Notes under the pieces: generated by a model
Database searches by the model: none
Told to the model about the DNA's origin: nothing
Seen by the model: only the letters and a program-made list of their open reading frames with translations
Shown: positions 1 to 52,734 of the stretch, piece by piece
Layout: each line of letters opens with the position of its first letter
How positions within the stretch are numbered: the first letter of the stretch is position 1
Made by a program: the position numbers and the translations under genes
Origin: Loxodes magnus
Taxonomy: Eukaryota; Ciliophora; Karyorelictea; Loxodida; Loxodidae
DNA: 64,000 bases
Direction of reading: 5' to 3'
NCBI GenBank assembly: GCA_946699065.1
Contig: CAMPDV010000893.1
Coordinates: 98,193 to 162,192 of the forward strand

Positions 1-2
1 CA

Positions 3-3000
3 GAGTTCATCGTATCGGGAAGTGCAGATTATACGGTGAGACTATGGGACGTCAAGACAGGTACCTGTAAGACCATGAGTGGTCACACTAGTTATGTATA
101 TGCTGTGGTTATATCCAGTGATTCAGAGTTCATCGTATCGGGAAGTTAAGATAATACGGTGAGACTATGGGACGTCAAGACAGGTACCTGTAAGACCATG
201 AGTGGTCACACTAGTGTTGTATCATCTGTGGCTATATCCAGTGATTCAGAGTTCATCGTATCGGGAAGTGCAGATAAGACGGTGAGACTATGGGACGTCA
301 AGACAGGTACCTGTAAGACCATGAGTGGTCACACTAGTGTTGTATCATCTGTGGCTATATCCAGTGATTCAGAGTTCATTGTATCGGGAAGTAATGATTA
401 GACGGTGAGACTATGGGACGTCAAGACAGGTACCTGTAAGACCATGAGTGGTCACACAGATTATGTAAGATCTGTGGCTATATCCAGTGATTCAGAGTTC
501 ATCGTATCGGGAAGTGCAGATTATACGGTGAGACTATGGGACGTCAAGACAGGTACCTGTAAGACCATGAGTGGTCACACTAGTTATGTATATGCTGTGG
601 TTATATCCAGTGATTCAGAGTTCATCGTATCGGGAAGTTGAGATAAGACGGTGAGACTATGGGACGTCAAGACAGGTACCTGTAAGACCATGAGTGGTCA
701 CACTAGTTCTGTATGATCTGGGGCTATATCCAGTGATTCAGAGTTCATCGTATCGGGAAGTGCAGATTAGACGGTGAGACTATGGGACGTCAAGACAGGT
801 ACCTGTAAGACCATGAGTGGTCACACTAGTGTTGTATCATCTGTGGCTATATCCAGTGATTCAGAGTTCATCGTATCGGGAAGTGCAGATTAGACGGTGA
901 GACTATGGGACGTCAAGACAGGTACCTGTAAGACCATGAGTGGTCACACTAGTTCTGTATCATCTGTGGCTATATCCAGTGATTCAGAGTTCATCGTATC
1001 GGGAAGTGCAGATAAGACGGTGAGACTATGGAACGTCAAGACAGGTACCTGTAAGACCATGAGTGGTCACACAGATTATGTATCATCTGTGGCTATATCC
1101 AGTGATTCAGAGTTCATCATATCGGGAAGTGCAGATTATACGGTGAGACTATGGGACGTCAAGACAGGTACCTGTAAGACCATGAGTGGTCACACAGATA
1201 CTGTATCATCTGTGGCTATATCCAGTGATTCAGAGTTCATCGTATCGGGAAGTTGAGATAAGACGGTGAGACTATGGGACGTCAAGACAGGTACCTGTAA
1301 GACCATGAGTGGTCACACTAGTTCTGTAAGATCTGTTGCTATATCCAGTGATTCAGAGTTCATCGTATCGGGAAGTTGAGATAAGACGGTGAGACTATGG
1401 GACGTCAAGACAGGTACCTGTAAGACCATGAGTGGTCACACTAGTGTTGTATCATCTGTGGCTATATCCAGTGATTCAGAGTTCATCGTATCGGGAAGTG
1501 CAGATTAGACGGTGAGACTATGGGACGTCAAGACAGGTACCTGTAAGACCATGAGTGGTCACACTAGTTCTGTATCATCTGTGGCTATATCCAGTGATTC
1601 AGAGTTCATCGTATCGGGAAGTGCAGATAAGACGGTGAGACTATGGAACGTCAAGACAGGTACCTGTAAGACCATGAGTGGTCACACAGATTATGTATCA
1701 TCTGTGGCTATATCCAGTGATTCAGAGTTCATCATATCGGGAAGTGCAGATTATACGGTGAGACTATGGGACGTCAAGACAGGTACCTGTAAGACCATGA
1801 GTGGTCACACAGATACTGTATCATCTGTGGCTATATCCAGTGATTCAGAGTTCATCGTATCGGGAAGTTGAGATAAGACGGTGAGACTATGGGACGTCAA
1901 GACAGGTACCTGTAAGACCATGAGTGGTCACACTAGTTCTGTAAGATCTGTTGCTATATCCAGTGATTCAGAGTTCATCGTATCGGGAAGTTGAGTTAAG
2001 ACGGTGAGACTATGGGACGTCAAGACAGGTACCTGTAAGACCATGAGTGGTCACACTAGTGTTGTATCATCTGTGGCTATATCCAGTGATTCAGAGTTCA
2101 TTGTATCGGGAAGTAATGATTAGACGGTGAGACTATGGGACGTCAAGACAGGTACCTGTAAGACCATGAGTGGTCACACAGATTATGTATCATCTGTGGC
2201 TATATCCAGTGATTCAGAGTTCATCGTATCGGGAAGTAGAGAAAAGACGGTGAGACTATGGGACGTCAAGACAGGTACCTGTAAGACCATGAGTGGTCAC
2301 ACTAGTGTTGTATCATCTGTGGCTATATCCAGTGATTCAGAGTTCATCGTATCGGGAAGTTGAGATTAGACGGTGAGACTATGGGACGTCAAGACAGGTA
2401 CCTGTAAGACCATGAGTGGTCACACTAGTTCTGTATCATCTGTGGCTATATCCAGTGATTCAGAGTTCATCGTATCGGGAAGTTGAATTAAGACGGTGAG
2501 ACTATGGGACGTCAAGACAGGTACCTGTAAGACCATGAGTGGTCACACAGATTCTGTATGATCTGGGGCTATATCCAGTGATTCAGAGTTCATCGTATCG
2601 GGAAGTTGAGATAAGACGGTGAGACTATGGGACGTCAAGACAGGTACCTGTAAGACCATGAGTGGTCACACAGATTCTGTATGATCTGTGGCTATATCCA
2701 GTGATTCAGAGTTCATCGTATCGGGAAGTTGAATTAAGACGGTGAGACTATGGAACGTCAAGACAGGTACCTGTAAGACCATGAGTGGTCACACAGATTA
2801 TGTAAGATCTGTGGCTATATCCAGTGATTCAGAGTTCATCGTATCGGGAAGTGCAGATTAGACGGTGAGACTATGGGACGTCAAGACAGGTACCTGTAAG
2901 ACCATGAGTGGTCACACAGATTATGTAAGATCTGTGGCTATATCCAGTGATTCAGAGTTCATCGTATCGGGAAGTGCAGATTAGACGGTGAGACTATGGG

Positions 3001-6000
3001 ACGTCAAGACAGGTACCTGTAAGACCATGAGTGGTCACACAGATTCTGTATGATCTGGGGCTATATCCAGTGATTCAGAGTTCATCGTATCGGGAAGTCA
3101 TGATTATACGGTGAGACTATGGGACGTCAAGATAGGTACCTGTAAGACCATGAGTGGTCACACTAGTGTTGTATCATCTGTGGCTATATCCAGTGATTCA
3201 GAGTTCATCGTATCGGGAAGTGCAGATAAGACGGTGAGACTATGGGACGTCAAGACAGGTACCTGTAAGACCATGAGTGGTCACACAGATTATGTAAGAT
3301 CTGTGGCTATATCCAGTGATTCAGAGTTCATCGTATCGGGAAGTAGAGATAAGACGGTGAGACTATGGGACGTCAAGACAGGTACCTGTAAGACCATGAG
3401 TGGTCACACTAGTGTTGTATCATCTGGGGCTATATCCAGTGATTCAGAGTTCATCGTATCGGGAAGTGCAGATAATACGGTGAGACTATGGGACGTCAAG
3501 ACAGGTACCTGTAAGACCATGAGTGGTCACACTAGTGTTGTATATGCTGTGGCTATATCCAGTGATTCAGAGTTCATCGTATCGGGAAGTTGAGTTAAGA
3601 CGGTGAGACTATGGGACGTCAAGACAGATACCTGTAAGACCATGAATGGTCACACTAGTTATGTATATGCTGTGGCTATATCCAGTGATTCAGAGTTCAT
3701 CGTATCGGGAAGTGCAGATTAGACGGTGAGACTATGGAACGTCAAGACAGGTACCTGTAAGACCATGAGTGGTCACACAGATTATGTATCATCTGTGGCT
3801 ATATCCAGTGATTCAGAGTTCATCATATCGGGAAGTGCAGATTATACGGTGAGACTATGGGACGTCAAGACAGGTACCTGTAAGACCATGAGTGGTCACA
3901 CAGATACTGTATCATCTGTGGCTATATCCAGTGATTCAGAGTTCATCGTATCGGGAAGTTGAGATAAGACGGTGAGACTATGGGACGTCAAGACAGGTAC
4001 CTGTAAGACCATGAGTGGTCACACTAGTTCTGTAAGATCTGTTGCTATATCCAGTGATTCAGAGTTCATCGTATCGGGAAGTTGAGATAAGACGGTGAGA
4101 CTATGGGACGTCAAGACAGGTACCTGTAAGACCATGAGTGGTCACACGGATTCTGTATGATCTGGGGCTATATCCAGTGATTCAGAGTTCATCGTATCGG
4201 GAAGTTAAGATAATACGGTGAGACTATGGGACGTCAAGACAGGTACCTGTAAGACCATGAGTGGTCACACTAGTTATGTATCATCTGTGGCTATATCCAG
4301 TGATTCAGAGTTCATCGTATCGGGAAGTAGAGATAAGACGGTGAGACTATGGGACGTCAAGACAGGTACCTGTAAGACCATGAGTGGTCACACTAGTGTT
4401 GAATATGCTGTGGCTATATCCAGTGATTCAGAGTTCATCGTATCGGGAAGTGCAGATTAGACGGTGAGACTATGGGACGTCAAGACAGGTACCTGTAAGA
4501 CCATGAGTGGTCACACAGATTCTGTATGATCTGGGGCTATATCCAGTGATTCAGAGTTCATCGTATCGGGAAGTTGAGATAAGACGGTGAGACTATGGGA
4601 CGTCAAGACAGGTACCTGTAAGACCATGAGTGGTCACACAGATTCTGTATGATCTGTGGCTATATCCAGTGATTCAGAGTTCATCGTATCGGGAAGTTGA
4701 ATTAAGACGGTGAGACTATGGAACGTCAAGACAGGTACCTGTAAGACCATGAGTGGTCACACAGATTATGTAAGATCTGTGGCTATATCCAGTGATTCAG
4801 AGTTCATCGTATCGGGAAGTTAAGATAATACGGTGAGACTATGGAACGTCAAGACAGGTACCTGTAAGACCATGAGTGGTCACACTAGTTCTGTATCATC
4901 TGTGGCTATATCCAGTGATTCAGAGTTCATCGTATCGGGAAGTGCAGATTAGACGGTGAGACTATGGGACGTCAAGACAGGTACCTGTAAGACCATGAGT
5001 GGTCACACTAGTTCTGTATCATCTGTGGCTATATCCAGTGATTCAGAGTTCATCGTATCGGGAAGTGCAGATTAGACGGTGAGACTATGGGACGTCAAGA
5101 AAGGTACCTGTAAGACCATGAGTGGTCACACTAGTTATGTATATGCTGTGGCTATATCCAGTGATTCAGAGTTCATCGTATCGGGAAGTTGAGTTAAGAC
5201 GGTGAGACTATGGGACGTCAAGACAGGTACCTGTAAGACCATGAGTGGTCACACTAGTGTTGTATCATCTGTGGCTATATCCAGTGATTCAGAGTTCATC
5301 GTATCGGGAAGTGCAGATAATACGGTGAGACTATGGAACGTCAAGACAGGTACCTGTAAGACCATGAGTGGCCACACTAGTGTTGTATCATCTGTGGCTA
5401 TATCCAGTGATTCAGAGTTCATCGTATCGGGAAGTGCAGATTATACGGTGAGACTATGGGACGTCAAGACAGGTACCTGTAAGACCATGAGTGGTCACAC
5501 AGATTATCTAAGATCTGTGTCTATATCCAGTGATTCAGAGTTCATCGTATCGGGAAGTAGAGATAAGACGGTGAGACTATGGGACGTCAAGACAGGTACC
5601 TGTAAGACCATGAGTGGTCACACTAGTGTTGTATCATCTGTGGCTATATCCAGTGATTCAGAGTTCATCGTATCGGGAAGTTATGATAATACGGTGAGAC
5701 TATGGCACGTCAAGACAGGTACCTGTAAGACCATGAGTGGTCACACTAGTGTTGTATCATCTGTGGCTATATCCAGTGATTCAGAGTTCATCGTATCGGG
5801 AAGTGCAGATTATACGGTGAGACTATGGAACGTCAAGACAGGTACCTGTAAGACCATGAGTGGTCACACTAGTGTTGTATCATCTGTGGCTATATCCAGT
5901 GATTCAGAGTTCATCGTATCGGGAAGTTGAGATAATACGGTGAGACTATGGGACGTCAAGACAGGTACCTGTAAGACCATGAGTGGTCACACAGATTATG

Positions 6001-9000
6001 TAAGATCTGTGGCTATATCCAGTGATTCAGAGTTCATCGTATCGGGAAGTTGAATTAAGACGGTGAGACTATGGCACGTCAAGACAGGTACCTGTAAGAC
6101 CATGAGTGGTCACACTAGTGTTGTATCATCTGTGGCTATATCCAGTGATTCAGAGTTCATCGTATCGGGAAGTTATGATAATACGGTGAGACTATGGCAC
6201 GTCAAGACAGGTACCTGTAAGACCATGAGTGGTCACACTAGTTCTGTATCATCTGTGGCTATATCCAGTGATTCAGAGTTCATCGTATCGGGAAGTCATG
6301 ATTATACGGTGAGACTATGGGACGTCAAGACAGGTACCTGTAAGACCATGAGTGGTCACACAGATTCTGTATCATCTGGGGCTATATCCAGTGATTCAGA
6401 GTTCATCGTATCGGGAAGTTGAGTTAAGACGGTGAGACTATGGGACGTCAAGACAGGTACCTGTAAGACCATGAGTGGTCACACTAGTGTTGTATCATCT
6501 GTGGCTATATCCAGTGATTCAGAGTTCATCGTATCGGGAAGTTGAGATAAGACGGTGAGACTATGGGACGTCAAGACAGGTACCTGTAAGACCATGAGTG
6601 GTCACACTAGTGTTGTATGATCTGTGGCTATATCCAGTGATTCAGAGTTCATCGTATCGGGAAGTGCAGATAAGACGGTGAGACTATGGGACGTCAAGAC
6701 AGGTACCTGTAAGACCATGAGTGGTCACACTAGTGTTGTATATGCTGTGGCTATATCCAGTGATTCAGAGTTCATCGTATCGGGAAGTTGAATTAAGACG
6801 GTGAGACTATGGGACGTCAAGACAGGTACCTGTAAGACCATGAGTGGTCACACAGATTCTGTATGATCTGGGGCTATATCCAGTGATTCAGAGTTCATCG
6901 TATCGGGAAGTGCAGATTATACGGTGAGACTATGGGACGTCAAGACAGATACCTGTAAGACCATGAGTGGTCACACTAGTTATGTATATGCTGTGGCTAT
7001 ATCCAGTGATTCAGAGTTCATCGTATCGGGAAGTTGAGTTAAGACGGTGAGACTATGGGACGTCAAGACAGGTACCTGTAAGACCATGAGTGGTCACACT
7101 CGTTATGTAAATGCTGTGGCTATATCCAGTGATTCAGAGTTCATCGTATCGGGAAGTTGAGTTAAGACGGTGAGACTATGGGACGTCAAGACAGGTACCT
7201 GTAAGACCATGAGTGGTCACACAGATTATCTAAGATCTGTGTCTATATCCAGTGATTCAGAGTTCATCGTATCGGGAAGTAGAGATAAGACGGTGAGACT
7301 ATGGGACGTCAAGACAGGTACCTGTAAGACCATGAGTGGTCACACTAGTGTTGTATCATCTGTGGCTATATCCAGTGATTCAGAGTTCATCGTATCGGGA
7401 AGTAGAGATAAGACGGTGAGACTATGGGACGTCAAGACAGGTACCTGTAAGACCATGAGTGGTCACACAGATTATCTAAGATCTGTGGCTATATCCAGTG
7501 ATTCAGAGTTCATCGTATCGGGAAGTTGAGATAAGACGGTGAGACTATGGGACGTCAAGACAGGTACCTGTAAGACCATGAGTGGTCACACAGATTCTGT
7601 ATCATCTGTGGCTATATCCAGTGATTCAGAGTTCATCGTATCGGGAAGTTGAGATAAGACGGTGAGACTATGGGACGTCAAGACAGGTACCTGTAAGACC
7701 ATGAGTGGTCACACTAGTTCTATATCATCTGTGGCTATATCCAGTGATTCAGAGTTCATCGTATCGGGAAGTAGAGATAAGACGGTGAGACTATGGCACG
7801 TCAAGACAGGTACCTGTAAGACCATGAGTGGTCACACAGATTCTGTATGATCTGGGGCTATATCCAGTGATTCAGAGTTCATCGTATCGGGAAGTTAAGA
7901 TAATACGGTGAGACTATGGGACGTCAAGACAGGTACCTGTAAGACCATGAGTGGTCACACAGATTATGTAAGATCTGTGGCTATATCCAGTGATTCAGAG
8001 TTCATCGTATCGGGAAGTGCAGATTAGACGGTGAGACTATGGGACGTCAAGACAGGTACCTGTAAGACCATGAGTGGTCACACTAGTTATGTATATGCTG
8101 TGGCTATATCCAGTGATTCAGAGTTCATCGTATCGGGAAGTTGAGTTAAGACGGTGAGACTATGGGACGTCAAGACAGGTACCTGTAAGACCATGAGTGG
8201 TCACACAGATTATGTAAGATCTGTGTCTATATCCAGTGATTCAGAGTTCATCGTATCGGGAAGTGCAGATTATACGGTGAGACTATGGGACGTCAAGACA
8301 GGTACCTGTAAGACCATGAGTGGTCACACAGATTCTGTATGATCTGGGGCTATATCCAGTGATTCAGAGTTCATCGTATCGGTAAGTGCAGATAATACGG
8401 TGAGACTATGGGACGTCAAGACAGGTACCTGTAAGACCATGAGTGGTCACACTAGTGTTGAATATGCTGTGGCTATATCCAGTGATTCAGAGTTCATCGT
8501 ATCGGGAAGTGCAGATAAGACGGTGAGACTATGGGACGTCAAGACAGGTACCTGTAAGACCATGAGTGGTCACACAGATTATGTATCATCTGTGGCTATA
8601 TCCAGTGATTCAGAGTTCATCATATCGGGAAGTAGAGATAAGACGGTGAGACTATGGGACGTCAAGACAGGTACCTGTAAGACCATGAGTGGTCACACTA
8701 GTTATTTATATGCTGTGGCTATATCCAGTGATTCAGAGTTTATCGTATCGGGAAGTTGAGATAATACGGTGAGACTATGGCACGTCAAGACAGGTACCTG
8801 TAAGACCATGAGTGGTCACACAGATTATCTAAGATCTGTGGCTATATCCAGTGATTCAGAGTTCATCGTATCGGGAAGTGCAGATTATACGGTGAGACTA
8901 TGGGACGTCAAGACAGGTACCTGTAAGACCATGAGTGGTCACACTAGTGTTGTATCATCTGTGGCTATATCCAGTGATTCAGAGTTCATCGTATCGGGAA

Positions 9001-12000
9001 GTTGTGATAAGACGGTGAGACTATGGGACGTCAAGACAGGTACCTGTAAGACCATGAGTGGTCACACAGATTCTGTATGATCTGGGGCTATATCCAGTGA
9101 TTCAGAGTTCATCGTATCGGGAAGTGCAGATTATACGGTGAGACTATGGGACGTCAAGACAGATACCTGTAAGACCATGAGTGGTCACACTAGTTATGTA
9201 TATGCTGTGGCTATATCCAGTGATTCAGAGTTCATCGTATCGGGAAGTTGAGTTAAGACGGTGAGACTATGGGACGTCAAGACAGGTACCTGTAAGACCA
9301 TGAGTGGTCACACTCGTTATGTAAATGCTGTGGCTATATCCAGTGATTCAGAGTTCATCGTATCGGGAAGTTGAGTTAAGACGGTGAGACTATGGGACGT
9401 CAAGACAGGTACCTGTAAGACCATGAGTGGTCACACAGATTATCTAAGATCTGTGTCTATATCCAGTGATTCAGAGTTCATCGTATCGGGAAGTAGAGAT
9501 AAGACGGTGAGACTATGGGACGTCAAGACAGGTACCTGTAAGACCATGAGTGGTCACACTAGTGTTGTATCATCTGTGGCTATATCCAGTGATTCAGAGT
9601 TCATCGTATCGGGAAGTAGAGATAAGACGGTGAGACTATGGGACGTCAAGACAGGTACCTGTAAGACCATGAGTGGTCACACAGATTATCTAAGATCTGT
9701 GGCTATATCCAGTGATTCAGAGTTCATCGTATCGGGAAGTTGAGATAAGACGGTGAGACTATGGGACGTCAAGACAGGTACCTGTAAGACCATGAGTGGT
9801 CACACAGATTCTGTATCATCTGTGGCTATATCCAGTGATTCAGAGTTCATCGTATCGGGAAGTTGAGATAAGACGGTGAGACTATGGGACGTCAAGACAG
9901 GTACCTGTAAGACCATGAGTGGTCACACTAGTTCTATATCATCTGTGGCTATATCCAGTGATTCAGAGTTCATCGTATCGGGAAGTAGAGATAAGACGGT
10001 GAGACTATGGCACGTCAAGACAGGTACCTGTAAGACCATGAGTGGTCACACAGATTCTGTATGATCTGGGGCTATATCCAGTGATTCAGAGTTCATCGTA
10101 TCGGGAAGTTAAGATAATACGGTGAGACTATGGGACGTCAAGACAGGTACCTGTAAGACCATGAGTGGTCACACTAGTGTTGTATCATCTGTGGCTATAT
10201 CCAGTGATTCAGAGTTCATCGTATCGGGAAGTTGAGTTAAGACGGTGAGACTATGGGACGTCAAGACAGGTACCTGTAAGACCATGAGTGGTCACACAGA
10301 TTATCTAAGATCTGTGTCTATATCCAGTGATTCAGAGTTCATCGTATCGGGAAGTGCAGATTATACGGTGAGACTATGGGACGTCAAGACAGGTACCTGT
10401 AAGACCATGAGTGGTCACACAGATTGAGTATATGCTGTGGCTATATCCAGTGATTCAGAGTTCATCGTATCGGGAAGTTATGATAAGACGGTGAGACTAT
10501 GGGACGTCAAGACAGGTACCTGTAAGACCATGAGTGGTCACACTAGTGTTGAATATGCTGTGGCTATATCCAGTGATTCAGAGTTCATCGTATCGGGAAG
10601 TGCAGATAATACGGTGAGACTATGGGACGTCAAGACAGGTACCTGTAAGACCATGAGTGGTCACACTAGTGTTGTATCATCTGTGGCTATATCCAGTGAT
10701 TCAGAGTTCATCGTATCGGGAAGTTGAGATAAGACGGTGAGACTATGGGACGTCAAGACAGGTACCTGTAAGACCATGAGTGGTCACACAGATTCTGTAT
10801 GATCTGGGGCTATATCCAGTGATTCAGAGTTCATCGTATCGGGAAGTGCAGATTATACGGTGAGACTATGGGACGTCAAGACAGGTACCTGTAAGACCAT
10901 GAGTGGTCACACAGATACTGTATCATCTGTGGCTATATCCAGTGATTCAGAGTTCATCGTATCGGGAAGTTGAGATAAGACGGTGAGACTATGGGACGTC
11001 AAGACAGGTACCTGTAAGACCATGAGTGGTCACACAGATTCTGTATGATCTGGGGCTATACCCAGTGATTCAGAGTTCATCGTATCGGGAAGTAATGATT
11101 ATACGGTGAGACTATGGGACGTCAAGACAGGTACCTGTAAGACCATGAGTGGTCACACTAGTGTTGTATCATCTGTGGCTATATCCAGTGATTCAGAGTT
11201 CATCGTATCGGGAAGTAGAGATAAGACGGTGAGACTATGGCACGTCAAGACAGGTACCTGTAAGACCATGAGTGGTCACACAGATACTGTATCATCTGTG
11301 GCTATATCCAGTGATTCAGAGTTCATCGTATCGGGAAGTGCAGATAATACGGTGAGACTATGGGACGTCAAGACAGGTACCTGTAAGACCATGAGTGGTC
11401 ACACAGATTATGTAAGATCTGTGGCTATATCCAGTGATTCAGAGTTCATCGTATCGGGAAGTGCAGATTAGACGGTGAGACTATGGGACGTCAAGACAGG
11501 TACCTGTAAGACCATGAGTGGTCACACTAGTTATGTATCATCTGTGGCTATATCCAGTGATTCAGAGTTCATCGTATCGGGAAGTTGAGATATGACTGTG
11601 AGACTATGGGACGTCAAGACAGGTACCTGTAAGACCATGAGTCGTCACACTAGTTCTGTATCATCTGTGGCTATATCCAGTGATTCAGAGTTCATCGTAT
11701 CGGGAAGTTGAGATAAGACGGTGAGACTATGGGACGTCAAGACAGGTACCTGTAAGACCATGAGTGGTCACACTAGTTCTGTATCATCTGTGGCTATATC
11801 CAGTGATTCAGAGTTCATCGTATCGGGAAGTTGAGATAAGACGGTGAGACTATGGGACGTCAAGACAGGTACCTGTAAGACCATGAGTGGTCACACTAGT
11901 TATGTATATGCTGTGGCTATATCCAGTGATTCAGAGTTCATCGTATCGGGAAGTGCAGATTATACGGTGAGACTATGGGACGTCAAGACAGGTACCTGTA

Positions 12001-24000: not shown

Positions 24001-27000
24001 CGGGAAGTTGAGTTAAGACGGTGAGACTATGGGACGTCAAGACAGGTACCTGTAAGACCATGAGTGGTCACACTAGTTATGTATATGCTGTGGCTATATC
24101 CAGTGATTCAGAGTTCATCGTATCGGGAAGTTGAGTTAAGACGGTGAGACTATGGGACGTCAAGACAGGTACCTGTAAGACCATGAGTGGTCACACTAGT
24201 TCTGTATGATCTGTGGCTATATCCAGTGATTCAGAGTTCATCGTATCGGGAAGTTGAGTTAAGACGGTGAGACTATGGGACGTCAAGACAGGTACCTGTA
24301 AGACCATGAGTGGTCACACTAGTTATGTATATGCTGTGGCTATATCCAGTGATTCAGAGTTCATCGTATCGGGAAGTAGAGATAAGACGGTGAGACTATG
24401 GCACGTCAAGACAGGTACCTGTAAGACCATGAGTGGTCACACAGATTCTGTATGATCTGGGGCTATATCCAGTGATTCAGAGTTCATCGTATCGGGAAGT
24501 TGAGATAAGATGGTGAGACTATGGGACGTCAAGACAGGTACCTGTAAGACCATGAGTGGTCACACTAGTGTTGTATCTGCTGTGGCTATATCCAGTGATT
24601 CAGAGTTCATCGTATCGGGAAGTTGAGATAATACGGTGAGACTATGGGACGTCAAGACAGGTACCTGTAAGACCATGAGTGGTCACACTAGTGTTGTATC
24701 ATCTGTGGCTATATCCAGTGATTCAGAGTTCATCGTATCGGGAAGTTGAGTTAAGACGGTGAGACTATGGGACGTCAAGACAGGTACCTGTAAGACCATG
24801 AGTGGTCACACTAGTTATGTATATGCTGTGGCTATATCCAGTGATTCAGAGTTCATCGTATCGGGAAGTGCAGATTATACGGTGAGACTATGGGACGTCA
24901 AGACAGGTACCTGTAAGACCATGAGTGGTCACACTAGTTCTGTAAGATCTGTGGCTATATCCAGTGATTCAGAGTTCATCGTATCGGGAAGTTGAGTTAA
25001 GACGGTGAGACTATGGGACGTCAAGACAGGTACCTGTAAGACCATGAGTGGTCACACGGATTCTGTATGATCGTGGGCTATATCCAGTGATTCAGAGTTC
25101 ATCGTATCGGGAAGTAGAGATAAGACGGTGAGACTATGGGACGTCAAGACAGGTACCTGTAAGACCATGAGATGTCACACGGATTCTGTATGATCGTGGG
25201 CTATATCCAGTGATTCAGAGTTCATCGTATCGGGAAGTTGAGATAAGACGGTGAGACTATGGGACGTCAAGACAGGTACCTGTAAGACCATGAGTGGTCA
25301 CACTAGTTCTGTAAGATCTGTGGCTATATCCAGTGATTCAGAGTTCATCGTATCGGGAAGTTGAGTTAAGACGGTGAGACTATGGGACGTCAAGACAGGT
25401 ACCTGTAAGACCATGAGTGGTCACACGGATTCTGTATGATCGTGGGCTATATCCAGTGATTCAGAGTTCATCGTATCGGGAAGTTGAGATAAGACGGTGA
25501 GACTATGGGACGTCAAGACAGGTACCTGTAAGACCATGAGTGGTCACACTAGTGTTGTATCATCTGTGGCTATATCCAGTGATTCAGAGTTCATCGTATC
25601 GGGAAGTAGAGATAAGACGGTGAGACTATGGGACGTCAAGACAGGTACCTGTAAGACCATGAGATGTCACACGGATTCTGTATGATCGTGGGCTATATCC
25701 AGTGATTCAGAGTTCATCGTATCGGGAAGTAGAGATAAGACGGTGAGACTATGGGACGTCAAGACAGGTACCTGTAAGACCATGAGTGGTCACACTAGTT
25801 CTGTATGATCTGGGGCTATATCCAGTGATTCAGAGTTCATCGTATCGGGAAGTTGAGATAAGACGGTGAGACTATGGGACGTCAAGACAGGTACCTGTAA
25901 GACCATGAGTGGTCACACTAGTTCTGTAAGATCTGTGGCTATATCCAGTGATTCAGAGTTCATCGTATCGGGAAGTTGAGTTAAGACGGTGAGACTATGG
26001 GACGTCAAGACAGGTACCTGTAAGACCATGAGTGGTCACACGGATTCTGTATGATCGTGGGCTATATCCAGTGATTCAGAGTTCATCGTATCGGGAAGTT
26101 GAGATAAGACGGTGAGACTATGGGACGTCAAGACAGGTACCTGTAAGACCATGAGTGGTCACACTAGTTCTGTAAGATCTGTGGCTATATCCAGTGATTC
26201 AGAGTTCATAGTATCGGGAAGTTGAGATAAGACGGTGAGACTATGGGACGTCAAGACAGGTACCTGTAAGACCATGAGTGGTCACACTAGTTATGTATAT
26301 GCTGTGGCTATATCCAGTGATTCAGAGTTCATCGTATCGGGAAGTTGAGTTAAGACGGTGAGACTATGGGACGTCAAGACAGGTACCTGTAAGACCATGA
26401 GTGGTCACACGGATTCTGTATGATCGTGGGCTATATCCAGTGATTCAGAGTTCATCGTATCGGGAAGTTGAGATAAGACGGTGAGACTATGGGACGTCAA
26501 GACAGGTACCTGTAAGACCATGAGTGGTCACACTAGTTCTTTAAGATCTGTGGCTATATCCAGTGATTCAGAGTTCATCGTATCGGGAAGTTGAGTTAAG
26601 ACGGTGAGACTATGGGACGTCAAGACAGGTACCTGTAAGACCATGAGTGGTCACACTAGTTATGTATATGCTGTGGCTATATCCAGTGATTCAGAGTTCA
26701 TCGTATCGGGAAGTTGAGTTAAGACGGTGAGACTATGGGACGTCAAGACAGGTACCTGTAAGACCATGAGTGGTCACACTAGTTCTGTATGATCTGGGGC
26801 TATATCCAGTGATTCAGAGTTCATCGTATCGGGAAGTTGAGATAAGACGGTGAGACTATGGGACGTCAAGACAGGTACCTGTAAGACCATGAGTGGTCAC
26901 ACTAGTTATGTATATGCTGTAGCTATATCCAGTGATTCAGAGTTCATCGTATCGGGAAGTTGAGTTAAGACGGTGAGACTATGGGACGTCAAGACAGGTA

Positions 27001-30000
27001 CCTGTAAGACCATGAGTGGTCACACGGATTCTGTATGATCGTGGGCTATATCCAGTGATTCAGAGTTCATCGTATCGGGAAGTTGAGATAAGACGGTGAG
27101 ACTATGGGACGTCAAGACAGGTACCTGTAAGACCATGAGTGGTCACACTAGTTCTTTAAGATCTGTGGCTATATCCAGTGATTCAGAGTTCATCGTATCG
27201 GGAAGTTGAGTTAAGACGGTGAGACTATGGGACGTCAAGACAGGTACCTGTAAGACCATGAGTGGTCACACGGATTCTGTATGATCGTGGGCTATATCCA
27301 GTGATTCAGAGTTCATCGTATCGGGAAGTTGAGATAAGACGGTGAGACTATGGGACGTCAAGACAGGTACCTGTAAGACCATGAGATGTCACACGGATTC
27401 TGTATGATCGTGGGCTATATCCAGTGATTCAGAGTTCATCGTATCGGGAAGTAGAGATAAGACGGTGAGACTATGGGACGTCAAGACAGGTACCTGTAAG
27501 ACCATGAGTGGTCACACTAGTTCTGTATGATCTGGGGCTATATCCAGTGATTCAGAGTTCATCGTATCGGGAAGTTGAGATAAGACGGTGAGACTATGGG
27601 ACGTCAAGACAGGTACCTGTAAGACCATGAGTGGTCACACTAGTTCTGTATCATCTGTGGCTATATCCAGTGATTCAGAGTTCATCGTATCGGGAAGTTG
27701 AGTTAAGACGGTGAGACTATGGGACGTCAAGACAGGTACCTGTAAGACCATGAGTGGTCACACTAGTTCTGTATCATCTGTGGCTATATCCAGTGATTCA
27801 GAGTTCATCGTATCGGGAAGTTGAGATAAGACGGTGAGACTATGGGACGTCAAGACAGGTACCTGTAAGACCATGAGTGGTCACACTAGTTCTGTATCAT
27901 CTGTGGCTATATCCAGTGATTCAGAGTTCATCGTATCGGGAAGTTGAGTTAAGACGGTGAGACTATGGGACGTCAAGACAGGTACCTGTAAGACCATGAG
28001 TGGTCACACTAGTTCTGTATCATCTGTGGCTATATCCAGTGATTCAGAGTTCATCGTATCGGGAAGTTGAGTTAAGACGGTGAGACTATGGGACGTCAAG
28101 ACAGGTACCTGTAAGACCATGAGTGGTCACACTAGTTCTGTATCATCTGTGGCTATATCCAGTGATTCAGAGTTCATCGTATCGGGAAGTAGAGATAAGA
28201 CGGTTAGACTATGGGACGTCAAGACAGGTACCTGTAAGACCATGAGTGGTCACACTAGTGTTGTATCATCTGTGGCTATATCCAGTGATTCAGAGTTCAT
28301 CGTATCGGGAAGTAGAGATAAGACGGTGAGACTATGGGACGTCAAGACAGGTACCTGTAAGACCATGAGTGGTCACACTAGTTCTGTATGATCTGGGGCT
28401 ATATCCAGTGATTCAGAGTTCATCGTATCGGGAAGTTGAGATAAGACGGTGAGACTATGGGACGTCAAGACAGGTACCTGTAAGACCATGAGTGGTCACA
28501 CAGATTATGTAAGATCTGTGTCTATATCCAGTGATTCAGAGTTCATCGTATCGGGAAGTGCAGATTATACGGTGAGACTATGGGACGTCAAGACAGGTAC
28601 CTGTAAGACCATGAGTGGTCACACTAGTGTTGTATCATCTGTGGCTATATCCAGTGATTCAGAGTTCATAGTATCGGGAAGTTATGATTAGACGGTGAGA
28701 CTATGGGACGTCAAGACAGGTACCTGTAAGACCATGAGTGGTCACACTAGTGTTGTATCATCTGTGGCTATATCCAGTGATTCAGAGTTCATCGTATCGG
28801 GAAGTAGAGATAAGACGGTGAGACTATGGGACGTCAAGACAGGTACCTGTAAGACCATGAGTGGTCACACTAGTGTTGTATCATCTGTGGCTATATCCAG
28901 TGATTCAGAGTTCATCGTATCGGGAAGTTGAGATAAGACGGTGAGACTATGGGACGTCAAGACAGGTACCTGTAAGACCATGAGTGGTCACACTAGTGTT
29001 GTATCATCTGTGGCTATATCCAGTGATTCAGAGTTCATCGTATCGGGAAGTGCAGATAAGACGGTGAGACTATGGGACGTCAAGACAGGTACCTGTAAGA
29101 CCATGAGTGGTCACACGGATTCTGTATGATCGTGGGCTATATCCAGTGATTCAGAGTTCATCGTATCGGGAAGTTGAGATAAGACGGTGAGACTATGGGA
29201 CGTCAAGACAGGTACCTGTAAGACCATGAGTGGTCACACTAGTTCTGTATCATCTGTGGCTATATCCAGTGATTCAGAGTTCATCGTATCGGGAAGTTGA
29301 GTTAAGACGGTGAGACTATGGGACGTCAAGACAGGTACCTGTAAGACCATGAGTGGTCACACTAGTTCTGTATCATCTGTGGCTATATCCAGTGATTCAG
29401 AGTTCATCGTATCGGGAAGTTGAGTTAAGACGGTGAGACTATGGGACGTCAAGACAGGTACCTGTAAGACCATGAGTGGTCACACTAGTGTTGTATCATC
29501 TGTGGCTATATCCAGTGATTCAGAGTTCATCGTATCGGGAAGTGCAGATAATACGGTGAGACTATGGAACGTCAAGACAGGTACCTGTAAGACCATGAGT
29601 GGTCACACTAGTGTTGTATCATCTGTGGCTATATCCAGTGATTCAGAGTTCATCGTATCGGGAAGTAGAGATAAGACGGTTAGACTATGGGACGTCAAGA
29701 CAGGTACCTGTAAGACCATGAGTGGTCACACTAGTGTTGTATCATCTGTGGCTATATCCAGTGATTCAGAGTTCATCGTATCGGGAAGTTGAGTTAAGAC
29801 GGTGAGACTATGGCACGTCAAGACAGGTACCTGTAAGACCATGAGTGGTCACACTAGTTCTGTATCATCTGTGGCTATATCCAGTGATTCAGAGTTCATC
29901 GTATCGGCAAGTGCAGATAATACGGTGAGACTATGGGACGTCAAGACAGGTACCTGTAAGACCATGAGTGGTCACACTAGTGTTGTATCATCTGTGGCTA

Positions 30001-33000
30001 TATCCAGTGATTCAGAGTTCATCGTATCGGGAAGTTGAGATAAGACGGTGAGACTATGGGACGTCAAGACAGGTACCTGTAAGACCATGAGTGGTCACAC
30101 TAGTTCTGTATGATCTGGGGCTATATCCAGTGATTCAGAGTTCATCGTATCGGGAAGTTGAGATAAGACGGTGAGACTATGGGACGTCAAGACAGGTACC
30201 TGTAAGACCATGAGTGGTCACACAGATTCTGTATCATCTGTGGCTATATCCAGTGATTCAGAGTTCATCGTATCGGGAAGTGCAGATAAGACGGTGAGAC
30301 TATGGGACGTCAAGACAGGTACCTGTAAGACCATGAGTGGTCACACAGATTATGTATCATCTGTGGCTATATCCAGTGATTCAGAGTTCATAGTATCGGG
30401 AAGTTATGATTAGACGGTGAGACTATGGGACGTCAAGACAGGTACCTGTAAGACCATGAGTGGTCACACTAGTTCTGTATGATCTGGGGTTATATCCAGT
30501 GATTCAGAGTTCATCGTATCGGGAAGTTGAGATAAGACGGTGAGACTATGGGACGTCAAGACAGGTACCTGTAAGACCATGAGTGGTCACACAGATTCTG
30601 TATCATCTGTGGCTATATCCAGTGATTCAGAGTTCATCGTATCGGGAAGTGCAGATAAGACGGTGAGACTATGGGACGTCAAGACAGGTACCTGTAAGAC
30701 CATGAGTGGTCACACAGATTCTGTATCATCTGTGGCTATATCCAGTGATTCAGAGTTCATCGTATCGGGAAGTGCAGATAAGACGGTGAGACTATGGGAC
30801 GTCAAGACAGGTACCTGTAAGACCATGAGTGGTCACACAGATTATGTATCATCTGTGGCTATATCCAGTGATTCAGAGTTCATCGTATCGGGAAGTTGAG
30901 ATAAGACGGTGAGACTATGGGACGTCAAGACAGGTACCTGTAAGACCATGAGTGGTCACACTAGTTCTGTATCATCTGTGGCTATATCCAGTGATTCAGA
31001 GTTCATCGTATCGGCAAGTGCAGATAATACGGTGAGACTATGGGACGTCAAGACAGGTACCTGTAAGACCATGAGTGGTCACACTAGTGTTGTATCATCT
31101 GTGGCTATATCCAGTGATTCAGAGTTCATCGTATCGGGAAGTTGAGATAAGACGGTGAGACTATGGGACGTCAAGACAGGTACCTGTAAGACCATGAGTG
31201 GTCACACTAGTTCTGTATGATCTGGGGCTATATCCAGTGATTCAGAGTTCATCGTATCGGGAAGTTGAGATAAGACGGTGAGACTATGGGACGTCAAGAC
31301 AGGTACCTGTAAGACCATGAGTGGTCACACAGATTCTGTATCATCTGTGGCTATATCCAGTGATTCAGAGTTCATCGTATCGGGAAGTGCAGATAAGACG
31401 GTGAGACTATGGGACGTCAAGACAGGTACCTGTAAGACCATGAGTGGTCACACAGATTATGTATCATCTGTGGCTATATCCAGTGATTCAGAGTTCATAG
31501 TATCGGGAAGTTATGATTAGACGGTGAGACTATGGGACGTCAAGACAGGTACCTGTAAGACCATGAGTGGTCACACTAGTTCTGTATGATCTGGGGTTAT
31601 ATCCAGTGATTCAGAGTTCATCGTATCGGGAAGTTGAGATAAGACGGTGAGACTATGGGACGTCAAGACAGGTACCTGTAAGACCATGAGTGGTCACACA
31701 GATTCTGTATCATCTGTGGCTATATCCAGTGATTCAGAGTTCATCGTATCGGGAAGTGCAGATAAGACGGTGAGACTATGGGACGTCAAGACAGGTACCT
31801 GTAAGACCATGAGTGGTCACACAGATTATGTATCATCTGTGGCTATATCCAGTGATTCAGAGTTCATAGTATCGGGAAGTTGAGATAAGACGGTGAGACT
31901 ATGGGACGTCAAGACAGGTACCTGTAAGACCATGAGTGGTCACACAGATTCTGTATGATCTGGGGCTATATCCAGTGATTCAGAGTTCATCGTATCGGGA
32001 AGTTGAGATAATACGGTGAGACTATGGGACGTCAAGACAGGTACCTGTAAGACCATGAGTGGTCACACTAGTGTTGTATCATCTGTGGCTATATCCAGTG
32101 ATTCAGAGTTCATCGTATCGGGAAGTAGAGATAAGACGGTGAGACTATGGCACGTCAAGACAGGTACCTGTAAGACCATGAGTGGTCACACAGATTCTGT
32201 ATGATCTGGGGCTATATCCAGTGATTCAGAGTTCATCGTATCGGGAAGTGCAGATAATACGGTGAGACTATGGAACGTCAAGACAGGTACCTGTAAGACC
32301 ATGAGTGGTCACACAGATTCTGTATGATCTGTGGCTATATCCAGTGATTCAGAGTTCATCGTATCGGGAAGTTGAGATAAGACGGTGAGACTATGGGACG
32401 TCAAGACAGGTACCTGTAAGACCATGAGTGGTCACACTAGTGTTGTATCATCTGTGGCTATATCCAGTGATTCAGAGTTCATCGTATCGGGAAGTAGAGA
32501 TAAGACGGTGAGACTATGGGACGTCAAGACAGGTACCTGTAAGACCATGAGTGGTCACACTAGTGTTGTATCATCTGTGGCTATATCCAGTGATTCAGAG
32601 TTCATCGTATCGGGAAGTAGAGATAAGACGGTGAGACTATGGGACGTCAAGACAGGTACCTGTAAGACCATGAGTGGTCACACTAGTGTTGTATCATCTG
32701 TGGCTATATCCAGTGATTCAGAGTTCATCGTATCGGGAAGTTGAGATAAGACGGTGAGACTATGGGACGTCAAGACATGTACCTGTAAGACCATGAGTGG
32801 TCACACTAGTTCTGTATGATCTGGGGCTATATCCAGTGATTCAGAGTTCATCGTATCGGGAAGTTGAGATAATACGGTGAGACTATGGGACGTCAAGACA
32901 GGTACCTGTAAGACCATGAGTGGTCACACAGATTCTGTATGATCTGTGGCTATATCCAGTGATTCAGAGTTCATCGTATCGGGAAGTTATGATTAGACGG

Positions 33001-36000
33001 TGAGACTATGGGACGTCAAGACAGGTACCTGTAAGACCATGAGTGGTCACACTAGTTCTGTATGATCTGGGGTTATATCCAGTGATTCAGAGTTCATCGT
33101 ATCGGGAAGTGCAGATAAGACGGTGAGACTATGGGACGTCAAGACAGGTACCTGTAAGACCATGAGTGGTCACACAGATTATGTATCATCTGTGGCTATA
33201 TCCAGTGATTCAGAGTTCATCGTATCGGGAAGTTGAGTTAAGACGGTGAGACTATGGCACGTCAAGACAGGTACCTGTAAGACCATGAGTGGTCACACTA
33301 GTTCTGTATCATCTGTGGCTATATCCAGTGATTCAGAGTTCATCGTATCGGCAAGTGCAGATAATACGGTGAGACTATGGGACGTCAAGACAGGTACCTG
33401 TAAGACCATGAGTGGTCACACTAGTTCTGTATGATCTGGGGTTATATCCAGTGATTCAGAGTTCATCGTATCGGGAAGTGCAGATAAGACGGTGAGACTA
33501 TGGGACGTCAAGACAGGTACCTGTAAGACCATGAGTGGTCACACAGATTATGTATCATCTGTGGCTATATCCAGTGATTCAGAGTTCATAGTATCGGGAA
33601 GTTGAGATAAGACGGTGAGACTATGGGACGTCAAGACAGGTACCTGTAAGACCATGAGTGGTCACACTAGTGTTGTATCTGCTGTGGCTATATCCAGTGA
33701 TTCAGAGTTCATCGTATCGGGAAGTTGAGTTAAGACGGTGAGACTATGGGACGTCAAGACAGGTACCTGTAAGACCATGAGTGGTCACACAGATTATGTA
33801 TCATCTGTGGCTATATCCAGTGATTCAGAGTTCATAGTATCGGGAAGTTGAGATAAGACGGTGAGACTATGGGACGTCAAGACAGGTACCTGTAAGACCA
33901 TGAGTGGTCACACAGATTCTGTATGATCTGGGGCTATATCCAGTGATTCAGAGTTCATCGTATCGGGAAGTTATGATAAGACGGTGAGACTATGGGACGT
34001 CAAGACAGGTACCTGTAAGACCATGAGTGGTCACACTAGTGTTGAATATGCTGTGGCTATATCCAGTGATTCAGAGTTCATCGTATCGGGAAGTTGAGAT
34101 AAGACGGTGAGACTATGGGACGTCAAGACAGGTACCTGTAAGACCATGAGTGGTCACACTAGTTATGTATATGCTGTGGCTATATCCAGTGATTCAGAGT
34201 TCATCGTATCGGGAAGTTGAGTTAAGACGGTGAGACTATGGGACGTCAAGACAGGTACCTGTAAGACCATGAGTGGTCACACAGATTCTGTATGATCTGG
34301 GGCTATATCCAGTGATTCAGAGTTCATCGTATCGGGAAGTGCAGATAATACGGTGAGACTATGGAACGTCAAGACAGGTACCTGTAAGACCATGAGTGGT
34401 CACACAGATTCTGTATGATCTGTGGCTATATCCAGTGATTCAGAGTTCATCGTATCGGGAAGTTGAGATAAGACGGTGAGACTATGGGACGTCAAGACAG
34501 GTACCTGTAAGACCATGAGTGGTCACACTAGTGTTGTATCATCTGTGGCTATATCCAGTGATTCAGAGTTCATCGTATCGGGAAGTAGAGATAAGACGGT
34601 GAGACTATGGGACGTCAAGACAGGTACCTGTAAGACCATGAGTGGTCACACAGATTATCTAAGATCTGTGGCTATATCCAGTGATTCAGAGTTCATCGTA
34701 TCGGGAAGTTGAGATAATACGGTGAGACTATGGGACGTCAAGACAGGTACCTGTAAGACCATGAGTGGTCACACAGATTCTGTATGATCTGGGGCTATAT
34801 CCAGTGATTCAGAGTTCATCGTATCGGGAAGTTGAGATAATACGGTGAGACTATGGGACGTCAAGACAGGTACCTGTAAGACCATGAGTGGTCACACGGA
34901 TTCTGTATGATCGTGGGCTATATCCAGTGATTCAGAGTTCATCGTATCGGGAAGTTGAGATAAGACGGTGAGACTATGGGACGTCAAGACAGGTACCTGT
35001 AAGACCATGAGTGGTCACACTAGTTCTGTATCATCTGTGGCTATATCCAGTGATTCAGAGTTCATCGTATCGGGAAGTTGAGTTAAGACGGTGAGACTAT
35101 GGGACGTCAAGACAGGTACCTGTAAGACCATGAGTGGTCACACGGATTCTGTATGATCGTGGGCTATATCCAGTGATTCAGAGTTCATCGTATCGGGAAG
35201 TTGAGATAAGACGGTGAGACTATGGGACGTCAAGACAGGTACCTGTAAGACCATGAGTGGTCACACAGATTCTGTATGATCTGTGGCTATATCCAGTGAT
35301 TCAGAGTTCATCGTATCGGGAAGTTGAGATAAGACGGTGAGACTATGGGACGTCAAGACAGGTACCTGTAAGACCATGAGTGGTCACACTAGTGTTGTAT
35401 CTGCTGTGGCTATATCCAGTGATTCAGAGTTCATCGTATCGGGAAGTTGAGTTAAGACGGTGAGACTATGGGACGTCAAGACAGGTACCTGTAAGACCAT
35501 GAGTGGTCACACAGATTCTGTATCATCTGTGGCTATATCCAGTGATTCAGAGTTCATCGTATCGGGAAGTTATGATTAGACGGTGAGACTATGGGACGTC
35601 AAGACAGGTACCTGTAAGACCATGAGTGGTCACACTAGTTCTGTATGATCTGGGGTTATATCCAGTGATTCAGAGTTCATCGTATCGGGAAGTAGAGATA
35701 AGACGGTGAGACTATGGGACGTCAAGACAGGTACCTGTAAGACCATGAGTGGTCACACAGATTCTGTATCATCTGTGGCTATATCCAGTGATTCAGAGTT
35801 CATCGTATCGGGAAGTGCAGATAAGACGGTGAGACTATGGGACGTCAAGACAGGTACCTGTAAGACCATGAGTGGTCACACAGATTATGTATCATCTGTG
35901 GCTATATCCAGTGATTCAGAGTTCATAGTATCGGGAAGTTGAGATAAGACGGTGAGACTATGGGACGTCAAGACAGGTACCTGTAAGACCATGAGTGGTC

Positions 36001-36233
36001 ACACAGATTCTGTATGATCTGGGGCTATATCCAGTGATTCAGAGTTCATCGTATCGGGAAGTTGAGATAATACGGTGAGACTATGGGACGTCAAGACAGG
36101 TACCTGTAAGACCATGAGTGGTCACACAGATTCTGTATGATCTGTGGCTATATCCAGTGATTCAGAGTTCATCGTATCGGGAAGTGCAGATTATACGGTG
36201 AGACTATGGGACGTCAAGACAGGTACCTTTTAG
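3..36233 (+). CDS. Giant WD40-repeat protein, C-terminal part of the frame (5' end outside window)
   Basis: One frame (codons starting at 3, 6, 9 and so on) stays open through the whole array if TAA/TAG are Gln and TGA is Trp. About 12,000 codons lie in the window. Each 41-residue unit is a textbook WD40 blade: GH-T, '[14 protein letters not shown]', a D, '[15 protein letters not shown]'. TGA occurs where WD40 families often have Trp: 'SGS-W-D-K-T', 'DSV-W-SGA' and 'HTD-W-VYAV'. TAG/TAA fall at 'AD-Q-T' and 'SGS-Q-D'. In the units I read, the backbone codons carry no stop-type codon. The frame leaves WD40 homology inside a unit at 36228 and meets TAG at 36231; the next in-frame TGA is at 36489, so the true end is uncertain. 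Seven blades usually make one propeller, so the frame could build dozens. No N-terminal domain is visible. Alternative: an untranscribed array or pseudogene. That it is WD40 sequence is certain; that it is expressed is not. Confidence 0.7.
642..2000 (+). repeat. Higher-order duplication, 615-bp period (5 units)
   Basis: The three-unit block at 897-1256 is repeated without change at 1512-1871, with matching neighbours (TGA-GAT-AAG followed by an SSV-RSV unit) on the right. The offset of 615 is 5 x 123. This is the mark of a recent unequal exchange within the array. Confidence 0.85.
6840..10120 (+). repeat. Higher-order duplication, 2214-bp offset (18 units)
   Basis: About nine units starting near 6840 recur near 9054. 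The same unit order is seen, including the rare 'RYVNAV' unit (7099 and 9313), the DYLRSVS unit (7170 and 9384) and the 'SSISSV' unit (7662 and 9876). The offset is 18 x 123 bases. Units between the two blocks differ. Confidence 0.85.
16518..19715 (+). repeat. Nested higher-order repeats: 369 bp and 1230 bp
   Basis: The three-unit block at 16518-16886 is repeated with a swapped first loop module at 16887-17255 (369 bp). The ten-unit block 17256-18485 then recurs in tandem at 18486-19715 (1230 bp), including the private variants 'VKTDTC' (17398, 18628), GGA-GAT-TAG (17735, 18965) and 'VKTVTC' (17767, 18997). The rare shared variants make a recent tandem duplication the simplest reading. Confidence 0.9.
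22848..23147 (+). other. Compensated frameshift inside the WD40 array
   Basis: At 22841-22850 the text reads CACTAGTTTGTATCAT where other units have CACTAGTGTTGTATCAT: one base lost. At 23141-23150 it reads GGAAGTTGCAGAT where others have GGAAGTGCAGAT: one base gained. The two changes cancel, so about 100 codons are read in another frame and phase is then restored exactly. The shifted stretch has two in-frame TGA-GAC codon pairs and TGA in 'RP-TGA', so it too is open only if TGA is sense. It would replace about two and a half blades with non-WD40 sequence. A sequencing or assembly error at one end is possible, but two independent errors that cancel are less likely. Confidence 0.85.
30047..32000 (+). 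repeat. Higher-order duplication, 1107-bp period (9 units)
   Basis: Frames at 30171 and 31278, and at 30540 and 31647, repeat at an offset of 1107 (9 x 123). They share the rare 'SAS' variant (GGCAAGT instead of GGGAAGT; 29908, 31015) and the 'GGGGTTATATCC' variant (30487, 31594). Confidence 0.85.
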
Positions 36234-36255
36234 AAAATGAGTCGTTTCTCATTTT
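36234..36255. other. Perfect hairpin at the 3' edge of the WD40 array
   Basis: AAAATGAG, six-base loop TCGTTT, CTCATTTT, followed by T-rich sequence. It starts immediately after the TAG at 36231. The left arm still resembles the array text (AAGACCATGAGTGGT became TAGAAAATGAGTCGT), so the hairpin seems to have formed where the last unit breaks off. It could be a breakpoint scar or an RNA 3'-end structure; I cannot tell which. Confidence 0.55.
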
Positions 36256-36900
36256 TAATTTTTTTAAAGTTTCAACTTTTTTATATGAAATAAAATTTTT
36301 TATACAATTAAAGATTTTTTAAATTATCAAAATTTTAAATTTAAAAGCATTTAATTTATTTTCTTTATCTATTTAATGGTTTCACATTGGCTTATAGATT
36401 TTCTTATTACCTGATTTCAAAAGTTAAATTAAACTTTTTTTTATGCTTATTTCGGGTTAAAAACATTTATAAAATAATTTATAAAATGTGAATAAAAGTT
36501 CAGAAAAAATCTGTTTCTACTTTATAACATGTAAATCTTTGAGAATCAAAATATTTTAAATATTTTAATAATTCATTAATTTAATAATGATTGGCCTAAA
36601 TATTTTTTGATAAAAATTACAAAATATTTTATTTAGACACAAATATTTGTCTAGATCAAATAAACTATTGAAAACGTCATTACTAATTTAAATTAATTAC
36701 ACTTATTTTAGCCTGATTAAAGTCTTATATTAATTTTACTTCAAAATAAATTTAAATGTTAATTCGTTTTGAGAAATAACAAATCAGATTAAAGAATCCT
36801 ACTTTATATATCTAACAAAAATATAACACATATAACCTTTTAAACAATTCGCACATATCACTTTTAGTCTCCATTTAAAAATCTTAGATCTCTAACTATT
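36256..36900. other. AT-rich spacer between array and first LINE remnant
   Basis: Very AT-rich with long T and A runs. No WD40 homology and no motif I recognise. The last 60 bases or so may hold decayed RT sequence in a different frame from the clear RT domain downstream (a weak 'KIL' palm-like stretch near 36878), so the LINE remnant may start earlier than annotated. Confidence 0.5.
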
Positions 36901-40500: not shown

Positions 40501-40545
40501 AGCTTAAGACTCGCCGTCAATATTTTAAATTATTATAATATATAT

Positions 40546-43080: not shown

Positions 43081-43399
43081 GCGATTACTGAGTTTTTATT
43101 GAAAATTATAAGAAAAATTTCTTAGTTTATTGATGGAAATAGTCTCTCTAATATAATGTTTATTATATTTGGTGTAAGTAATTTCAGGAAATACACTTAA
43201 ATTATTTTATATTTAGTCTATAATTCTTTTTGCTGTTGGCATAAGTGTATTTCTAGAGAGACATTCCATTAAGAATTTATGCTTTATTTTTTATTCCTTG
43301 AGTTTATAAAAAATACATATTATTCTAAACATGTGACATGTCTCAAAATTATACAAATCGAAACATTTTTTTATATGTTTCTAGTATGGTAAATTAAAT

Positions 43400-51425: not shown

Positions 51426-51447
51426 GGAAAAATTTTGAGGCAATTTT

Positions 51448-52645: not shown

Positions 52646-52734
52646 GATTTCGGTGCAAGAAAAAAATTTTAAGAATTGGATTTTGGTATTTTTTTTTGAT
52701 TTTTAGAGCTAAATGAAAGGCGACTAAGATCATT

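Follow-up and report, generated by a model that had tools for sequence, protein, structure and literature searches.

A tandem array of 123-bp units, each corresponding to one WD40 blade, occupies the first 36 kb of a 64,000-nucleotide stretch of Loxodes magnus DNA (hereafter the window), positions 98,193 to 162,192 of the forward strand of contig CAMPDV010000893.1 (hereafter C893). With a probability of about 0.7, this array is part of a satellite-like WD40-blade DNA derived from a large, variable ciliate gene family. On the best reading the satellite grew from, and keeps contact with, the array-type blades of a family of propeller genes, one intact-looking member of which lies in the same window. 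The preliminary description, made from the letters alone, had taken the array for a giant WD40 gene. Its WD40 blades, its largely held frame and its loop-confined stop-type codons stand, whereas a single giant protein is unlikely: there is no head by the start of the contig and no cap, the framework looks neutral, and the unit occurs at satellite copy number.

The array and its copies in the genome

The landmarks of the array within the window are as follows.
1..36242, + strand: window part of the 123-bp WD40-blade array, 294 units (Tandem Repeats Finder (TRF), unit anchors, Pfam WD40)
22815..23184, + strand: compensating slips, -1 then +1, placing two units out of frame (anchor spacing)
36210..36260, + strand: 3' end of the array, where the last unit degenerates (TGTFQKMSRFS...) into AT-rich DNA

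TRF assigns the array a period of 123 with 94% matches over positions 1-36242, and Pfam WD40 scores 830.6 bits (cut-off 27) for 33000-36398, comprising the last 3.2 kb of the array and a short tail. Units were located by fuzzy anchors allowing substitutions only, which served for the frame counts in the window, on the whole of C893 and in the sister arrays. The 294 WD40 units previously counted in the window are borne out by 294 anchors. The exact 123-base phase ascribed to them is found in 291 of 293 spacings; the remaining two, of 122 and 124 bp, are one -1 and one +1 slip that leave 2 of 294 units off frame.

The full array is larger than its window part. With the upstream sequence of C893 fetched, it extends from base 1 of the contig to about 134,430 (134 kb, 1,092 anchored units). 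The upstream extension that had been proposed as a way to a start and N-terminal domains was thus run, and no start or N-terminal head upstream of the array was reached as far as C893 base 1. No C-terminal cap is present at the 3' end, the first in-frame TGA lying only at about 36489. Across the contig the slips are +4, -1, -1 and +1, cancelling pairwise, and 62 of the 1,092 units lie off frame. The units are head-to-tail and homogenised, with a mean identity to the consensus of 95.3%, yet 346 distinct units occur among 1,087 and the loop codons form 236 haplotypes (column counts on C893 omit the 4 of 1,091 unit intervals whose length is other than 123 bp). Higher-order periodicity is weak, appearing at lag 13 only with 8.8% exact matches, and a higher-order satellite repeat was set aside on this count.

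The genome search covered 705,730,643 bases in 7,843 contigs of the macronuclear assembly, published as 706 Mbp (PMC11441545). A 29-bp core of the 123-bp unit has 171,138 + 207,903 = 379,041 exact matches, and the reversed control has 0. Multiplied by 123 bp, the core copies amount to 46.6 Mb, about 6.6% of the assembly; on C893 there are 1,006 exact cores for 1,096 fuzzy anchors. Exact array units occur on many contigs, and a PF00400 profile search gave WD40 matches on further contigs (best 150 of 98,995 first-look candidates scored). Satellite DNA born from a coding repeat is, as a general kind, head-to-tail, homogenised and present in high copy at many loci. The Loxodes array is all of these; what sets it apart is its unit, a hypervariable blade that genes of a large family continue to use. 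For a related 126-bp unit the exact core was counted 4,454 times. Four units of the 126-bp family stand in a row near a contig end (C9:4197-4600) and may represent a four-blade gene from a second WD40 family.

Indels that break the frame had been named as grounds for doubting a coding array. They are found in part, in the 62 displaced units of C893 and in some sister arrays built of this unit or related ones, not in others. The 334 units of the C119 array fall into phases of 179, 141 and 14, with 7 of 333 steps off, and the 63 units on C272 into phases of 41 and 22 with 1 slip; the frame is also lost on C620 (14 and 3 of 17 units) and C9 (6, 5 and 2 of 13 units). Array starts read on C119, C9 and C620 (3 of 3) are abrupt, adjoin AT-rich DNA and are without a recognisable head. 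On C119, C1503, C6957 and C893 the arrays extend to contig ends.

The published annotation checked gene predictions against TRF low-complexity regions of at least 1 kb, according to the accessible part of its description (PMC11441545), so arrays of this kind may have been treated as low-complexity repeats and passed over. Among titles and the beginnings of abstracts, with subscription papers outside the scope, no report on Loxodes and WD40 or on such arrays was found.

Stop-type codons and constraint on the array

Loxodes magnus is a karyorelict in which UAA and UAG are read as glutamine and UGA as tryptophan or stop by context (PMC11441545, accessible part). The frame of the window array holds 251 stop-type codons in 12,077, namely 219 TGA, 27 TAG and 5 TAA. 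It had been described as continuously open under the ciliate code; because NCBI table 6, the ordinary ciliate code, reads the 219 TGAs as stops, the frame does not stay open under that table; it does so only where TGA codes for an amino acid as well (table 27 type). No codon alone closes a frame in the Loxodes code, and therefore the openness of 12,000 codons carries no weight.

The placement of these codons agrees with the earlier view that they sit in loop codons and are not scattered. A count by column puts 246 of the 251 in loop columns: TGA 149 times in column 7, 64 times in column 32 and twice in column 30, TAG 26 times in column 9, and TAA 5 times in column 7. Four of the five others are TGAs in columns 11 and 24; since these columns also carry shifted codons, the four appear to stem from the two units that slipped. 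The remaining one, in column 22, fits the diverged last unit. Simple pseudogene decay is rejected for the loop codons on this distribution. A mutation of tryptophan codons resembling repeat-induced point mutation is rejected too, the framework TGG being intact in 1,086 of 1,087 units.

Sequence comparison shows TGA to be a sense codon here. The TGA at 50176, in the family gene at 48157-50523, falls in an alignment column where 20 of 20 proteins aligned have tryptophan. Residue 92 of the same gene is TGA, as in its relative on C141, and TGG in the relatives on C646, C769 and C1063. Within the exact framework searched genome-wide, loop codon 7 is TGA 17,119 times versus TGG twice.

Changes in the framework of the C893 array look neutral. 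Across 1,087 units, 53 distinct one-base codon changes were counted in the framework columns, 12 of them silent and 41 amino-acid-changing, a silent fraction of 0.226, where 0.247 is expected from the observed spectrum and 0.233 from a uniform one. No silent excess, and with it no sign of purifying selection on the C893 framework, is evident in these 53 distinct events. Nor are singleton codon states denser in the loop, with 18 in 11 loop columns versus 43 in 30 framework columns (p 0.66; units spanning slips included).

The propeller gene family and the remainder of the window

Downstream of the array lies an intact-looking member of the gene family, with the following parts.
48157..50523, + strand: family gene with zinc-finger-like, coiled-coil-like (by eye) and pentapeptide regions, seven WD40 blades and a cap
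48157..49416, + strand: head used as query, 420 aa, with 100 scored matches in the genome
49279..49443, + strand: pentapeptide repeats, residues 375-429 (PF00805, 31.1 bits, cut-off 20.2)
49516..50025, + strand: the gene's four 123-bp blades of the array type, three of which recur unchanged as array units
50005..50520, + strand: diverged last blades and C-terminal cap
50521-50523, + strand: TGA stop of the family gene

The head is rich in Cys and His at its start, with an arrangement that is RING-like in spacing only; a RING profile is not significant there (best Pfam zf-RING E 2), and the six Pfam families reported for the head with E no higher than 5 include neither NACHT nor HET. PF13599 on the pentapeptide region reaches 37.4 bits, under its cut-off of 38. 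Pfam finds seven WD40 stretches in the gene, whose four array-type units show 92% matches by TRF. The propeller is predicted to form one seven-blade WD40 ring: in the structural model the block mean of the predicted local distance difference test (pLDDT) is at least 90 over residues 61-330 of the piece folded, and the best solved fold match is the seven-blade v13WRAP-T design, with a template modelling score of 0.94 by target. A protein homologue search gave 460 matches; the 120 listed, many of them named WD40 proteins, include one from Blepharisma and one from Stentor, with query coverage of at most 58%.

The family is large. The head query gives at least 100 matches at E of 1e-134 or below, 98 of them over residues 1-420 (best 100 of 2,973 first-look candidates), and the cap query at least 150 (best 150 of 1,484 first-look candidates). 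The 100 heads lie on 90 contigs, and since some pairs have identical scores these may be allelic copies. Among heads at most 20 kb from the low end of a contig (low ends only), 36 point outwards and 3 inwards. Where head and cap queries pair on the same contig and strand, their distance is 814-823 bp in 23 of 25 pairs, whereas in the other two the cap match belongs to a neighbouring gene; the usual architecture is therefore fixed. Family genes end in the conserved cap and a TGA, unlike the 3' end of the array. Four array-type units are present in each of five genes read, namely the window gene and those on C141, C646, C769 and C13. The C13 gene (C13:1754800-1759726) has blade spacings of 122, 123 and 124 bp and is therefore probably a frame-slipped copy.

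The blade frameworks are near-identical between genes with diverged heads, and variation lies in the loop codons. In the 10 pairs formed by five genes (window gene, C141, C646, C769 and C1063), the ratio of nonsynonymous to synonymous substitution rates (dN/dS) of the head is 0.26-0.41, with a head dS of 0.10-0.41 in nine pairs and 0.04 in the tenth. The C13 gene was omitted from dN/dS for want of the start motif, and from the ranges that follow as its blades are frame-slipped. The proportion of synonymous differences (pS) in the blade framework is 0.012-0.044 in the same 10 pairs, and the nonsynonymous proportion (pN) runs from 0.000 (C646 versus C769) to 0.029 (C141 versus C1063, the first C1063 unit being diverged). 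Loop-column pN between genes is 0.24-0.33, a figure that is descriptive because the loop columns were picked for varying. The variable column pairs, 30/32 and 7/9, flank a conserved Val and a conserved Asp and are 18 codons apart.

Genes and arrays also have blades in common. In the window gene, the four array-type blades have 0, 0, 0 and 5 mismatches to their nearest unit in the cis array, which holds 13, 6 and 2 exact copies of the three identical ones. Framework pS to the cis array is 0.005 for the window gene and 0.016-0.028 for the genes on C141, C646, C769 and C1063. Genome-wide, blade 2 of the C646 gene has 50 exact copies spread over 14 other contigs, and blade 1 of the C141 gene has 78 spread over 5; blade 2 of the C769 gene has no exact copy elsewhere.

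These observations may be put together as follows. The source of the array would be the large gene family with a zinc-finger-like/pentapeptide head and one seven-blade propeller containing four array-type blades. Unequal exchange and gene conversion would hold the frameworks near-identical in genes and arrays alike, with the differences lying in loop codons at the presumed binding face. The same exchange and conversion would have run away at many places, giving arrays of hundreds to thousands of units, and units outside genes with a head and cap would drift without visible protein constraint. The array itself is probably not translated, and the products of the family genes probably have a role in recognition.

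By analogy, the Loxodes propellers may work like the recognition propellers of fungal HET-D/E, without being members of that group. The fungal HNWD/NWD genes (het-d, het-e and het-r of Podospora anserina) likewise have near-identical WD40 repeats in concerted evolution across loci with diverged other domains, and hypervariable codon pairs flanking a conserved codon. Codons 7, 9, 25 and 27 of the Podospora WD40 repeat are positively selected (PMC1805685, accessible part), and their spacing of 18 codons matches that of columns 30, 32, 7 and 9 here, a match of position. Within one HNWD/NWD gene the WD40 repeats share more than about 80% identity (PMC12222747, accessible part); in the Loxodes window gene the figure is 92% over 4 units. 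The fungal proteins differ in their HET and NACHT heads, in place of the zinc-finger-like/pentapeptide head found here, and usually have 11 repeats modelled as two propellers (PMC12222747) in place of one seven-blade propeller; giant arrays outside genes are a feature of Loxodes. WD40 recently amplified propellers (WRAPs; WRAP-T, 2ymu) share the near-identical blades and provide the best fold match. Highly repetitive propellers have been collected mostly from bacteria, with fungi supplying most of the eukaryotic ones, and unlike in Loxodes no satellite-scale arrays are described for WRAPs in the accessible part of that source (PMC9218822). In Tetrahymena, genes with 90-bp leucine-rich repeat (LRR) exons are also a ciliate family growing by tandem multiplication of a short repeat; there, however, the repeats are leucine-rich and each is an exon of its own, most genes having 1 to 50, and no extragenic arrays with hundreds of units are described in the accessible part of the report (PMC6564038).

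Three further tandem repeats follow the gene up to the end of the contig.
50812..51071, + strand: 55-bp tandem repeats (TRF), with periods of 55-57 behind the C141, C646, C769 and C13 relatives
51447..52654, + strand: 21-bp tandem repeats (TRF), with 21-22 bp behind the same four relatives
53971..64000, + strand: purine-rich tandem repeats of 80 bp that run to the end of the contig and recur at the C769 and C13 contig ends

The C646 contig ends in a 77-bp repeat and C141 ends before any such repeat. In the window the 80-bp array has a GC skew of about +0.8 towards the contig end. The Loxodes authors could not find telomeres (PMC11441545, accessible part). Given this and the order of 55-bp, 21-22-bp and 80-bp repeats at contig ends, the region may be subtelomeric, or the repeats may merely break the assembly.

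Between array and gene, a LINE-like (long interspersed nuclear element) endonuclease match (PF14529, E 5.5e-10) lies at 45551-45868 on the - strand, within 42600-46100, in frames that look broken by slips. An interspersed element is present twice in opposite orientation (40532-40914 and 46492-46872), its arms 91-97% complementary. A Gln-rich, coiled-coil-like frame with an in-frame TGA occupies 38837-40150 on the + strand and has no Pfam match. There were no matches in searches with Rfam, run on 36-54 kb, or with ARAGORN.

Weight of the competing readings

Several facts weigh against the satellite reading. On C893, 1,030 of 1,092 units are in frame and both slip pairs compensate. The contig starts inside the array, so that the 5' end of the array lies beyond it. 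There are no slips in the stretches read of C6957 (129 of 129 units in frame), C1832 (63 of 63) and C1503 (36 of 36), and the count for the 123-bp units on C54 (33 of 86 steps off, 26 of them not multiples of 3; 87 units divided 49, 20 and 18 by phase), comes from a rare unit variant among the first 100 places listed. On C1063 an intact head is followed by at least 29 in-frame units (29 of 29 read; C1063:63000-68000), showing that long arrays can hang on a head; at this locus a gene has either expanded or begun to turn into an array. Between the window gene and C1063 the framework pN of 0.025 is not below the pS of 0.020, and moderate constraint on the array framework is still possible because only 53 distinct events were available. 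Finally, the assembly authors suspect misassembled repeats, which makes the repeat content uncertain (PMC11441545, accessible part).

The likeliest of the alternatives, though itself rather unlikely, holds that the arrays are kept as silent donors, a library from which gene conversion loads loop combinations into the array-type blades of the genes, much as silent archives do in antigenic variation. It gains from the exact blades shared by genes and arrays in cis and, for C646 and C141, in trans, from the diversity of units and loop haplotypes within one array, from the four array-type units in each of five genes, and from the proximity of the window gene framework to its cis array. Arrays spun off from genes would give the same facts, however, and one of the three trans blades tested is without a copy elsewhere. 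The framework of the array looks neutral, though a donor needs only short intact units. It is rather doubtful that about 6.6% of the genome is in this way a working library of some 380,000 blades, re-arming seven-blade recognition proteins by conversion. If it were, a single cell would hold a genome-scale repertoire of binding faces, in which the ambiguous UGA spells nearly every tryptophan at a key loop position.

An assembly artefact, with array length and copy number largely due to false joins or duplicated haplotypes of shorter arrays, is improbable. The assembly authors ascribe differences in assembly size to misassembled repeats (PMC11441545, accessible part), and the arrays touch contig ends in the four cases given above; even so, a several-fold error would still leave a satellite. 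The number of distinct units and the weak periodicity indicate that the C893 array is not one short read repeated.

A structural satellite, for instance centromeric or heterochromatic and of incidental WD40 origin, likewise has a low probability. Abundance and long arrays would suit it, as would the H3K9me3 reported in Loxodes macronuclei (PMC11441545, accessible part), but the occurrence of exact blades in both arrays and genes suggests that the two remain in contact.

Least of all, a genuine giant WD40 gene of 1,092 or more blades and about 45,000 codons is very improbable: the frame held in most of C893 with compensating slips and in three sister stretches with none, the sense reading of TGA and the head with 29 blades on C1063 speak for it, and the lack of a head as far as the contig start, the missing cap and near stop, the neutral-looking framework with its 62 displaced units, the one fixed head-cap spacing in 23 properly paired genes and the satellite copy number of the unit speak against it.

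Under the satellite reading, what appeared to be a record-size protein becomes an abundant satellite-like DNA whose unit is a blade still used in a large gene family. It would make the birth of a satellite from protein repeats accessible to study, and the propellers of the family may represent an independent counterpart to the fungal HET-D/E propellers, with variation at the same loop positions. It also advises caution with this genome, as open frames carry no weight where the sole stop codon is also sense.

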